From: Streptomyces umbrinus
GTDB taxonomy: Bacteria > Actinomycetota > Actinomycetes > Streptomycetales > Streptomycetaceae
Direction: 5' to 3'
DNA: 64,000 nucleotides
NCBI RefSeq assembly: GCF_030817415.1
Contig: NZ_JAUSZI010000002.1
Span: 6,510,001-6,574,000 of the forward strand
Every line of letters begins with the position of its first letter. Positions within the stretch are counted from its first letter, which is position 1. The notes under the pieces are model-generated. The model saw nothing but the letters and a program-made list of their open reading frames with translations. It had not been told where the DNA came from and did not search any database. The position numbers and the translations under genes were made by a program. Below, piece by piece: positions 27,821 to 61,305 of this stretch.

Positions 27821-27894
27821 TCGGGGTGGCGGGATTTGAACCCACGACCTCTTCGTCCCGAACGAAGCGCGCTGCCAAGCTGCGCTACACCCCG
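27821..27894 (-). tRNA. tRNA-Pro, anticodon CGG
   Basis: Read on the minus strand, CGGGGTG (27894 on) pairs with the CACCCCG 3' side of the acceptor; the D arm contains AGCGCAGCTTGGCAGCG, the anticodon loop TTCGGGA gives CGG for proline, and the T arm is GGGTTCAAATCC. Position 27821 supplies the discriminator A. The 3' CCA is not encoded. The gene is 74 bases. No integrated element flanks it. Confidence 0.97.
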
Positions 27895-39127: not shown

Positions 39128-42106
39128 CTAGGGTCGTGGTTTCTTGATGCCGTGCACGCGCGCGTACTCCTCGGCGAGCCAGGGCCCGAGATCGTCGACG
39201 TACGACCGCAGGACGACGGCATCGCCCTTCGGCTCGTACCCGAGGACGGCCGCCTCCCGCAGTTGCGCGGCCCGCTCCGGGTAGTACGTGCCGAACACCT
39301 CGGCCATCTCCGTCAGATCGCTCGTGTGAGGTCGGACCGGGGCGCCCTGCCGACGTTGCCGTCGGTGGGTTTCCCCGGCCCGCCTCCCGAACCGGACGTG
39401 CCCGATCTCCAGGCATCCGGCTCTCCACAAGCCCTCTCAGGCGGCCGCTGTCATCGTGGTCCCGCTGGGCCAGGGCGAGGGGATCTTGTTCCCGCGATAC
39501 AGGTAACGGTTTGTGCGCACTTTCGCGCACCTGAACAAGACGACCTCGTCGTCGGCTGGCCACCATTGGCCTGCACAGTAACGATGGCGCAGGTTCTTCC
39601 AGTTGGACCGGCGGTGTTTGCGCCGCAGCCATCCGAAGACCTGGCGCCAGGTGAAGGCCGACAGGTACTGGAAGGTCGCGGACGACACCCCGTGCCGGAA
39701 GTACGCCGTCCAGCCCCGCAGCACCGGGTTGAGCTGGTGCAGCACGACTGCCAGCGGCAGGTTCGTGTCCTGTCGGCACAGCGTCTTGACCTTCTCCTTG
39801 ACGGCCTGGAGGGCCTTCTTGGAGGGGTAGAGGTAGACGTAGTGCTTCTGGGTCCCGCGTTTGCGGTGACGCTGGAGGCGCCACCCGAGGAAGTCCAGCC
39901 CCTCGTCGATATGGGTGATGGCCGTCTTCTCCACCGACAGACGCAGTCCCATCGGGACGAGTGCTTCCGCCGCCTGGGTGCGTATGTCCTCAGCCTGCTC
40001 ACGGGTCCCGGTCACGGCGATCAGAAAATCGTCTGCATACCGGAAGAGCCGGTAGTTGGCGAGGTTCTGGCGACGTCGCCGGGCCCGCTGGCCCTGCGTG
40101 AAGTTCGGCCCGCCCGGACAGGCCGCGATGAACTCATCGAGGACCGACAGGGCGATGTTGGCCAGCAGCGGCGAGAGGATCCCGCCTTGCGGAGTGCCGG
40201 TATCGGTGTCCTTGGACTGGCCGCCCTCGCTGAGGATGCCCGCCTTCAGGAATGCCTTCACCAGGTCAAGAACGCGTCGGTCCCCGACTCGGCGGCGCAC
40301 CCGGCTCATCAGAGCCGTGTGGTCGATCGAGTCGAAACACGCCTCAATATCCCCCTCCACCATCCACTCATAAGAGCTCTTGGCGAAGTGGTGTGCCTCG
40401 GCGAGCGCGTCATGAGCCCGGCGTTTGGGGCGGAACCCGTAGGAACACGGGAGGAAATCCGCCTCAAAGATCGGCTCCAACACCAGCTTCAGGGACGCCT
40501 GGACCACCCGGTCCCGCACGGTGGGGATCCCCAGCCGACGGCGCTTGGCCGTCCCCGGCTTGGGAATCATCCGTTCCCGCACGGGAAGCGGGCGGAAACT
40601 ACGGTCTTTCAGGTCGGACCGCACCTCGTCGAGGAATGCCTCGACGCCTTGCCCGTCCTCTACGGAGCGAGCGGTCTGCCCGTCCACTCCGGCCGAGCGG
40701 GCGCCCCTGTTTCTCCTCACCCGATCCCACGCGATCAGTAGAAACGCGGGATCGGCAACGAGATTGAACAGGTCATCGAACCGGCGATCACGATCGTCGG
40801 TCGCCCAACAGTGCAGCTTGGTCTGCATCTCCAGTACCCGGCGCTCGGCCTTGAGCAGCGCGAACTCCAGCGCGTCGGTATTCACCAGCGGCCTCCCGGC
40901 ATTGCAGCATCCTCCCTGCCGACTTGCTGGCCCCCTTCGCCATGCACGGAGCTTTCCTCCGCTCGGACTACTACGGGGCCTCCGCCCCACCTGCGGCCCT
41001 CAGCCGGCAACGGGCCTGCCCTCCGCCGCCGGACCGGCAGTCCGGAGGAACAGGGCGACCGCAGGCGGTTCCCACGTTCACCATGTGCCGATCGGCCAGG
41101 TCGGCGTCCCGCTACTACCCCGGCAGCATCACCACGCCTACGCCGCAGACCTTCAGCGTGGCCTCCCCACCGGCAGTTGGAGACCGGCTTCGGAGTTGAC
41201 CACCCCTGTCGAAGCGAGCGATCACGCACTGCACCCCGGGCCCATATCCGCCAGATTTGAGCCCGGTGCAAGACTTACGGGGCTTTACACGGGTTCCTCT
41301 TCGTACGCCTTCTGGCCTTGCTTGCCGAACCCGACACGTCTGGCAGTACCGCGCCGTCCCGGCGTTGTCAGGGCTGCTTTCCATCTTCACCGGCGTTCCC
41401 CGGCTCGGACTGCCCTCAGCTTCTACCCGGCCGCTGCGACGGCCCGGCGGTAGAGGTCTTGCACCTCCACTCGGTCACATGGCGCCTCGTGGCGCACCCA
41501 GCAGTTCCAGCGGGGCATGACGAGGGTGAAGCCGGTGCGGACGAGATGACGTGACATGAAGCGCACGAGGGGCCTCAGGGCCTCCTCCGCGCCGTCCGCC
41601 TCGGCGATCCGCTCACGCCACCGCGGGAGGAACAACGCGAGGTCGCCGTTCGTCTCCCGGGCGAGGAGCGCGTCGGGCCGGTAGCGCGGCAGATACTCGG
41701 CGAGGTCCTCGCCCAGCAGCGGCGTACAGAGGCAGGCCACGAACCAGCCGAGGTCGTGCCTCTCCAGGTCGCTCAGCACCTGCTCCCGGCCGACCAGCAG
41801 CGTCCCCGCCCCGTCGATCTGCGGGAACTCCTTGTCGAGCGCCTCGTCGAGCGAGCGGGCGTCCGTACGGTCCGCCTCCGTGGGCTCCTCGCGCAGGGCG
41901 AGCAGCAGGTCGAGGTCGGAACGGCCCACGCGCGCGGTGCCGCGCGGGATCGACCCGTACAGGTACGCGCTGTGCAGCCGTGCCCCGAAGACGTCCAGCA
42001 CCCGGTCGCGGGCCGTGGCCACGACGGGCCGGAACGCGCTCGGGATCAGGCCCGGAGATCCCTCGCGTTCGATGTATCCCCGGGCGTCGAGCCCCTTGTT
42101 CGGCAT
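39128..42106 (-). CDS. Nucleotidyltransferase-domain protein, split by a group II intron
   Basis: Exon 1 runs from ATG 42106 (or GTG 42121) to 41498; exon 2 from 39325 to the TAG at 39128. Joining them gives 268 residues in one frame: MPNKGLDARG to PRWNCW from exon 1, TSDLTEMAEVFGTYYPER to the end from exon 2. The minimal nucleotidyltransferase motif is GS at 51-52 with D64 and D66 (GSIPRGTARVGRSDLDLL). A helical C-terminal domain follows. Substrate unknown. With the intron spliced the gene should work; if not, the protein ends early at residue 228 with an intron-derived tail (stop at 41423). Confidence 0.85.
39389..39423 (-). ncRNA. Group II intron domain V catalytic hairpin
   Basis: On the minus strand the 35 bases read GAGCCGGATGCCTGGAGATC then GGGCACGTCCGGTTC: the AGC catalytic triad region at the 5' side, a GAGA tetraloop, a CACG bulge, and closing TCCGGTTC. 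This is the diagnostic element of group II introns. It starts 14 bases after the maturase stop. Confidence 0.93.
39437..40885 (-). CDS. ltrA: Group II intron reverse transcriptase/maturase
   Basis: A 482-residue protein when started at GTG 40885 behind GGGAGG. RT blocks are present: RPLPVRERMIPKPGTAKRRRLG, the FLPCSYGFRPKRRAHDAL block, DIEACFDSIDH, GTPQGGILSPLLANI, FRYADDFLIAV (YADD active site), and a domain X maturase region (LNPVLRGWTAYFRHG). There is no HNH endonuclease domain, so mobility would rely on retrohoming via replication forks. The product promotes splicing and reverse transcription of its own intron. Confidence 0.95.
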   Translation of the reverse strand: MNTDALEFALLKAERRVLEMQTKLHCWATDDRDRRFDDLFNLVADPAFLLIAWDRVRRNRGARSAGVDGQTARSVEDGQGVEAFLDEVRSDLKDRSFRPLPVRERMIPKPGTAKRRRLGIPTVRDRVVQASLKLVLEPIFEADFLPCSYGFRPKRRAHDALAEAHHFAKSSYEWMVEGDIEACFDSIDHTALMSRVRRRVGDRRVLDLVKAFLKAGILSEGGQSKDTDTGTPQGGILSPLLANIALSVLDEFIAACPGGPNFTQGQRARRRRQNLANYRLFRYADDFLIAVTGTREQAEDIRTQAAEALVPMGLRLSVEKTAITHIDEGLDFLGWRLQRHRKRGTQKHYVYLYPSKKALQAVKEKVKTLCRQDTNLPLAVVLHQLNPVLRGWTAYFRHGVSSATFQYLSAFTWRQVFGWLRRKHRRSNWKNLRHRYCAGQWWPADDEVVLFRCAKVRTNRYLYRGNKIPSPWPSGTTMTAAA

Positions 42107-61224: not shown

Positions 61225-61305
61225 CTAACCCGGTCCGGCTCCTCCCCCCCCGAGTCAGACCGTGGGGACGACCCCCGCTCTCCCCCCCGGCGGGGGTCGT
61301 CGCAT
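61225..61305 (+). ncRNA. 6C RNA
   Basis: Two hairpins with C-rich loops, the definition of 6C RNA. Hairpin 1 (61232-61261) has stem GGTCCGGCTC/GAGTCAGACC and a loop of CTCCCCCCCC; hairpin 2 (61267-61301) has stem GACGACCCCCGC/GCGGGGGTCGTC and a loop containing CCCCCCC. The C runs are on the plus strand, fixing the orientation. In S. coelicolor 6C lies at this same position, next to the HAD phosphatase gene (from memory), and is linked to development. The second hairpin probably doubles as its terminator. Confidence 0.9.

Follow-up and report, generated by a model that had tools for sequence, protein, structure and literature searches.

Identical group II introns in an IS701-family transposase gene and in a nucleotidyltransferase-like gene of Streptomyces umbrinus

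The intron and the gene that it interrupts

The window analyzed here is a stretch of 64,000 nucleotides of Streptomyces umbrinus (contig NZ_JAUSZI010000002.1, positions 6,510,001 to 6,574,000). On its minus strand, a gene for a nucleotidyltransferase-like protein is split into two exons by a group II intron (Table 1), and an identical intron lies elsewhere in the same genome, in the transposase gene of an insertion sequence (IS). The pair is best explained (probability about 0.88) by ectopic movement of an endonuclease-less, IIB-type intron from its home in an IS701-family transposase gene into the gene in the window. The intron RNA would have reverse-spliced into the DNA at this site, and the insertion appears to be young. 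Its entry may have been favored because the gene happens to carry a stretch very similar to the home site. The maturase would then remove the intron from the mRNA, at some efficiency, to give a protein of 268 residues.

The intron has the ends GTGCGCC and CTCAC (GU...AC, in keeping with the 5′ GU and 3′ AY of group II introns), and its last hundred nucleotides (39326-39425) match the Rfam family RF00029 (Intron_gpII) with 46.7 bits (E 5e-06), above the gathering score. Within this part, RNA folding recovers a domain V hairpin and a domain VI whose bulged A lies 7 nt from the 3′ end; in group II introns this adenosine stands 7-8 nt from the 3′ end. Upstream of domain V, in domain IV, an open reading frame (ORF) encodes a reverse transcriptase (RT) with a maturase domain, matching Pfam RVT_1 and GIIM as well as TIGR04416, the NCBI model for group II RT/maturases (370 bits, cut-off 300). 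The protein has 482 residues if it starts at the GTG at 40885, just 5′ of which stands GGGAGG. The Pfam scan matched RVT_1 and GIIM alone and found no HNH endonuclease domain. Ends, domain V, domain VI with its bulged A, and RT/maturase ORF together identify a group II intron. A first-pass annotation, made from the sequence alone, had already placed the boundaries, domain V and a maturase in domain IV as they are given here; the ends, the Rfam match and the loci of relatives support the boundaries, the fold and RF00029 support domain V, and the three protein models support the maturase. A literature search, with most subscription journals outside its reach, found among the papers listed none whose title or abstract opening describes this intron.

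The interrupted gene matches PF01909 with 22.1 bits (cut-off 21). Its exons of 203 and 65 codons are open, free of frameshifts and stops, and together encode 268 residues. Two protein searches returned 1976 and 2060 matches, and the best 120 of each yielded 217 distinct homologs; in every one of these, the last residue of exon 1 (...W) runs straight into the first of exon 2 (T...), with a gap of 0. The earlier proposal that the exons form one gene is thus confirmed, as it is by the comparison with relatives that had been recommended as a check, in which the gene is uninterrupted. In nine of 60 relatives' genomes, matches to the two flanks stop and start at the exact outer bases of the intron and lie side by side in the relative's DNA; two more (G024, G006) have collinear flank matches; these counts are minima, taken among the matches listed. 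Of the listed homologous proteins, the closest are from Streptomyces phaeochromogenes, with 95% identity over exon 1. Orthologous DNA was read at 33 distinct sites, located in fetched loci by a W-x-x-W motif scan that is blind to sites lacking the motif and that missed one locus (L123). The intron was found at none of these 33 sites and in none of the 217 listed homologs, although protein lists under-report interrupted genes.

The host protein weakly resembles AadA-type adenylyltransferases. The predicted fold of an ortholog is of moderate confidence (mean pLDDT, the predicted local distance difference test score, 79.6; predicted template modeling score, pTM, 0.55), and a Foldseek search with this model gave AadA-type enzymes (best E 5.9e-07, TM score 0.37). 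Searching PDB sequences with the host protein gave nothing below E 0.04.

Table 1. Positions of the gene, the intron and their pairing elements in the window
Feature	Position	Strand	Basis
Exon 1, nucleotidyltransferase-like gene, 203 codons from ATG (42106-42104)	41498..42106	-	PF01909, homologs
Exon 2, 65 codons and stop	39128..39325	-	homologs
Group II intron, 2172 nt, 5′ GUGCGCC ... CUCAC 3′	39326..41497	-	ends, Rfam, empty sites in relatives, identical second copy
Intron-encoded protein, RT and maturase domain, YADD at residue 283	39437..40885	-	Pfam, TIGR04416
Domain V hairpin	39389..39423	-	RF00029, RNA fold
Domain VI with bulged A, presumed branch point at 39332	39328..39386	-	RNA fold
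EBS1 (intron 318-323), partner IBS1	41175..41180	-	covariation scan
EBS2 (intron 225-230, UCUUGC), partner IBS2	41268..41273	-	covariation scan
EBS3 (intron 384, U), partner exon +1	41114..41114	-	position scan
IBS1 (-6 to -1, TGCTGG)	41498..41503	-	pairing
IBS2 (-14 to -9, GCTGGA)	41506..41511	-	pairing
IBS3 (+1, A)	39325..39325	-	pairing with EBS3
Cys codon, Gly in all 217 compared homologs; base 41503 (-6) equals the donor base	41501..41503	-	homologs, orthologous DNA

The identical copy and its transposase home

The second copy (G000:C2:4981956-4984127, minus strand) is 100% identical to the first over 2172 nt. It sits in a transposase ORF between the codons for RKNCW and TIAEW, and the piece of this ORF downstream of the intron matches DDE_5 with 141.7 bits. 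The family is called IS701 after another copy at this junction, on a plasmid of Streptomyces sp. NBC_01216, whose record annotates the ORF on the 3′ side as an IS701 family transposase. Since the two copies in one genome are identical, the event that separated them was presumably recent.

Close copies, defined by at least 88% identity over at least 100 nt and a readable flank, number 17, several of them partial and with one flank only. All but the window copy lie at one transposase junction, between W and (Q/T)-(L/I)-(A/S)-E (16/17). Besides the two S. umbrinus copies, they comprise plasmid copies in Streptomyces sp. NBC_01216 and Streptomyces sp. NBC_01454 (both at the transposase junction), three from S. 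blattellae (at contig ends, with one full flank each), and one each from Streptomyces sp. NBRC 110611, S. pacificus, S. tibetensis, S. lacrimifluminis, Kitasatospora sp. MAA19, S. stelliscabiei and the genomes G411, G386, G153 and G165. Two remnants shorter than 100 nt were left out, one of 79 nt at the same transposase junction (L117) and one of 84 nt at another site (L118), as were two pieces with no readable flank, one of 71 nt in G214 and one on an S. leeuwenhoekii plasmid (998 nt, 94%, no intron end). The home of the intron is the conserved stretch of IS701-family transposases in which RKNxW is followed by (Q/T)-(L/I)-(A/S)-E, and the gene in the window is probably a secondary, recent site. 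Homing sites are described as the usual target of all group II intron lineages except class C (PMC4424553).

Several loci show further peculiarities at this home. On the NBC_01216 plasmid (L163:4993-6183), the annotated transposase begins inside the 3′ end of the intron: exon 2 was taken for a separate gene beginning in domain V-VI, a trap that would also split the gene in the window. Right next to the transposase gene that holds the second copy lies one for a related transposase (51% identical; G000:C2:4985133-4986086), which is vacant. In Kitasatospora sp. MAA19 (L042:2996-4166, L040:1-1332), the transposase-site copy is itself interrupted in the maturase ORF, between RRFDDLF and NLVADP, by an apparent group II intron whose 5′ part is 75% and whose 3′ part is 84% identical, with its halves on two contigs; this copy is likely a twintron. 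In Streptomyces stelliscabiei (L044:2916-5901), a remnant of the transposase-site intron holds another intron within its 5′ part.

This life style recalls that of RmInt1 from Sinorhizobium meliloti, a IIB intron with a class D intron-encoded protein. Like the S. umbrinus intron, RmInt1 is endonuclease-less and has its home in an IS element (ISRm2011-2), and it has been described at ectopic sites in ordinary genes, including oxi1, whose intron-binding sites (IBSs) are similar to those of ISRm2011-2 (PMC5894124, PMC8914252). The S. umbrinus intron likewise has an IS transposase gene as its home and a second location whose IBS is similar. The likeness drawn here is one of life style. The home is an IS630 element there and an IS701 element here, the hosts belong to different phyla, and for S. 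umbrinus both splicing and mobility are read from sequence alone.

Exon recognition and the choice of target

The exon-binding sites (EBSs) of the intron were located by covariation. The 5′ parts of 50 intron loci were aligned, and pairing of each intron with its own exon was compared with pairing with the exons of other introns, at three lengths and ten offsets over the whole 5′ part. Poorly pairing loci with misjudged ends or alignment (L012, L037, L038, L041, L047, L066) were kept. Among 32 distinct EBS pairs, pairing with the own exon reached 76% at EBS1 and 82% at EBS2, against 42% and 47% in shuffles. None of 20000 shuffles attained the observed value at either site, although the shuffles, run on the same loci from which the positions were picked, are uncorrected for that choice; a better guide is how far the next unrelated stretch falls behind (0.14 versus 0.38-0.40). 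For EBS3, intron position 384 pairs with exon base +1 in 21 of 24 loci, related copies included, where 9.2 are expected, and the next best position pairs in 18 against 10.5 expected. By complementarity alone, EBS1 would have been placed at intron 568-573, the sole perfect partner of bases -6 to -1, near the start of the ORF; the covariation positions were used instead.

Group IIC introns lack EBS2. The covariation at EBS2 rules that group out, and the insertion also lies within coding sequence, as the 217 gap-free homologs show. The first-pass annotation had contrasted this insertion with bacterial introns that often sit behind terminators; that description belongs to group IIC, which has an endonuclease-less RT/maturase in common with the intron studied here but differs from it in site and in the EBS2-IBS2 pairing. 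Since EBS3-IBS3 is described as a mark of IIB and IIC introns (PMC4424553), its predicted presence together with EBS2 identifies the intron as IIB-type, with EBS1-IBS1, EBS2-IBS2 and EBS3-IBS3 pairings.

These pairings also bear on the direction of movement. EBS2 pairs at all six positions with GCAAGA at the transposase site and at five of six, one of them G-U, with GCUGGA in the window gene. Because the transposase is the better partner, movement likely proceeded from the transposase into the window gene. Today the two sites agree at 17 of 20 upstream bases and in the A at +1. Much of this likeness is already present in the 33 uninterrupted orthologous sites, which have TGCC at -20 to -17 (32-33 of 33), CGC at -15 to -13 (28-32), G at -10 (33/33) and GCTGG at -5 to -1 (27-33), indicating that the resemblance is older than the insertion. 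The orthologs resemble the donor site because their MPRWNGW motif happens to be spelled with nearly the same bases as LPRKNCW. With up to two mismatches, the 22-base pattern TGCCNCGCNNGAACNGCTGGAC occurs at 12 places in the 12.4 Mb genome. Of these, the two occupied sites alone agree with it at all 16 specified upstream bases; as the pattern was derived from the same two sites, the result is in part circular. A 14-base core, GCNNGAACNGCTGG, lacks selectivity, with 72 places in the genome versus 101 for the reversed control. The sequence pattern thus leaves many weak candidate sites in the genome.

Four points weigh against a move out of the transposase. EBS1 pairs equally well with the transposase and window exons (5/7 each). 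The TGCCNCGCNNGAACNGCTGGAC pattern with three mismatches is not commoner in the genome than its reversed control (120 versus 124). At least four vacant transposase sites (L152-L155) exist in the genome, and homing into these might have been expected before entry elsewhere; they have C at +1, unpaired with the U of EBS3, where the window gene has A, but as copies L036 and L061 share the +1 mismatch this difference is suggestive only. Finally, the best DnaA match lies at 6.03 Mb, and if the replication origin is by dnaA, the leading-strand template would carry the window copy (6.55 Mb, minus strand) and the lagging-strand template would carry the transposase copy (4.98 Mb, minus strand). The lagging-strand template is the one that the endonuclease-less RmInt1 is described as predominantly using (PMC8914252); as a single case, the strand argument is not decisive.

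Consequences for the host gene and the wider family

The gene has changed at one conserved residue beside the junction. At 107 near-invariant columns, where at least 98.5% of the homologs share one residue, the window protein differs once, at residue 202, where Cys replaces the Gly of all 217 listed homologs. The W-T junction that the first-pass annotation took for the normal continuation agrees with the homologs; the residues before it read RWN-C-W where the homologs mostly have RWN-G-W. The altered codon begins six bases before the intron, and its first base (-6) is G at all 33 orthologous DNA sites but T in both the window and the same-genome donor, with which the last ten bases of exon 1 are identical. 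Orthologs and donor differ at three positions between -15 and -1, of which -6 is the nearest to the intron. As T at -6 turns a G-U pair with EBS1 into U-U, making the exon a poorer partner, it was not required for insertion.

It is possible, though somewhat short of an even chance, that Gly202Cys marks a co-conversion tract of 6 to 10 nt, in which 5′ exon bases of the donor were copied along with the intron; such a tract would be compatible with the other readings of the locus. The T shared by window and donor against uniform Gly and G elsewhere, its standing as the sole change among the 107 residues and the nearest of the three differences, and its dispensability for insertion all favor this. 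Against it, the case is built on one base picked out post hoc, neither the differences next upstream (-11, -12) nor the 3′ exon show conversion, and a chance mutation, error-prone repair of the junction or a polishing error beside an exact repeat of 2.2 kb would look alike. Reverse transcription may have run past the intron into unspliced donor RNA, with joining at a GAAC microhomology. The broader proposition, that 6 to 10 bases of the donor's 5′ exon reached the target by ectopic retrotransposition, and that mobile introns are thereby able to alter coding sequence at their points of entry, is tentative and a little less probable still.

Whether the gene still yields protein depends on splicing. 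Unspliced, exon 1 runs 24 codons into the intron to a stop at 41423-41425. The earlier claim that a protein of normal length depends on splicing fits the sequence, as the joined exons would give 268 residues and read-through would end early, but the spliced product would not be fully normal given Gly202Cys. The position between two codons, also offered as evidence, has no such weight: excision restores the frame from any phase, so insertion there does not speak for adaptation, and phase 0 follows from the in-frame match to the donor site (AAC TGC TGG). From the sequence features, it is plausible that the intron splices from the window transcript. A group II intron is reportedly present in recA of Geobacillus kaustophilus, a housekeeping gene, and so likewise lies inside a conventional protein gene; by comparison, the intron in the window appears to have arrived secondarily from an IS element, and none of the 217 listed homologs contains it. 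Housekeeping genes are described as rarely interrupted by bacterial group II introns (PMC6003770).

A stable intron adopted by the host, with the gene normally expressed through efficient splicing, would account for the open exons, the intact intron and maturase, the folding domains V and VI and the bulged A. It is nonetheless unlikely, given that the 217 listed homologs and the 33 orthologous DNA sites are uninterrupted, that two identical copies point to a recent event, and that the spliced product is changed at an invariant residue. Even odds may be given to the view that the insertion in effect knocks the gene out, splicing being too weak to matter, as in the IS element of RmInt1, an intron for which very poor in vivo splicing in the natural host has been described (PMC5894124). 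The early stop in the read-through protein and the one invariant residue already changed accord with a knock-out, while the lack of any frameshift or stop in either exon and the retention of all but one of the 107 near-invariant residues speak against it. Under the ectopic movement favored here, the insertion appears to be so young that exon conservation is uninformative about dependence on splicing.

Related introns were surveyed by laying out 42 insertions and scanning one flank piece of each of 20 with Pfam, in hand-chosen frames. Transposases or integrase-core transposases (DDE_5, IS4/5-type, IS110, rve-type, ISL3, DDE_3, ISAzo13) account for 15 of the 20, and S-adenosyl methyltransferases (PF04672), both in G071, for two; three had no Pfam match. 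The insertion in the window is thus not the only one in an ordinary gene, but such cases are a minority among these 20 flanks. The two methyltransferase copies (L068, L084) lie between the codons for WNYWL and GGKDN, and the 5′ flank of L052 looks like the same motif. Other related introns have entered IS4/5-type transposase genes in antisense orientation, at the codons for TRYDK or TRYEK, by Pfam match (L055, L056, L058, L079) or by motif only (L060, L074); in this orientation, splicing cannot help the host gene. At six loci (L059, L062, L063, L064, L081, L083), the 17-18 nt or so just 5′ of the intron resemble the 5′ end of another intron, and the EBSs fit that intron-like flank, as if some lineage specialized in invading other introns. 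Elsewhere in the window, Rfam identifies a 6C RNA family match (61229-61305, 52.2 bits) and a tRNA gene (27821-27894, minus strand).

The survey suggests that, in Streptomyces and its kin, related introns have their homes at conserved codons in many families of transposases. Against this background, the insertion in the window is a clean new example of a known behavior, in which a transposase-homed intron appears to have landed in an ordinary Streptomyces enzyme gene. In this actinobacterial pair of identical copies, an IS transposase gene houses one and an ordinary gene the other, and the exon pairings of the intron have been worked out. If the odd base is real, the spliced protein would be altered at a residue that is invariant in the homolog set. 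The pair thereby opens two questions: how well such an intron splices once it has left mobile DNA, and whether bases of the donor exon move along with it.
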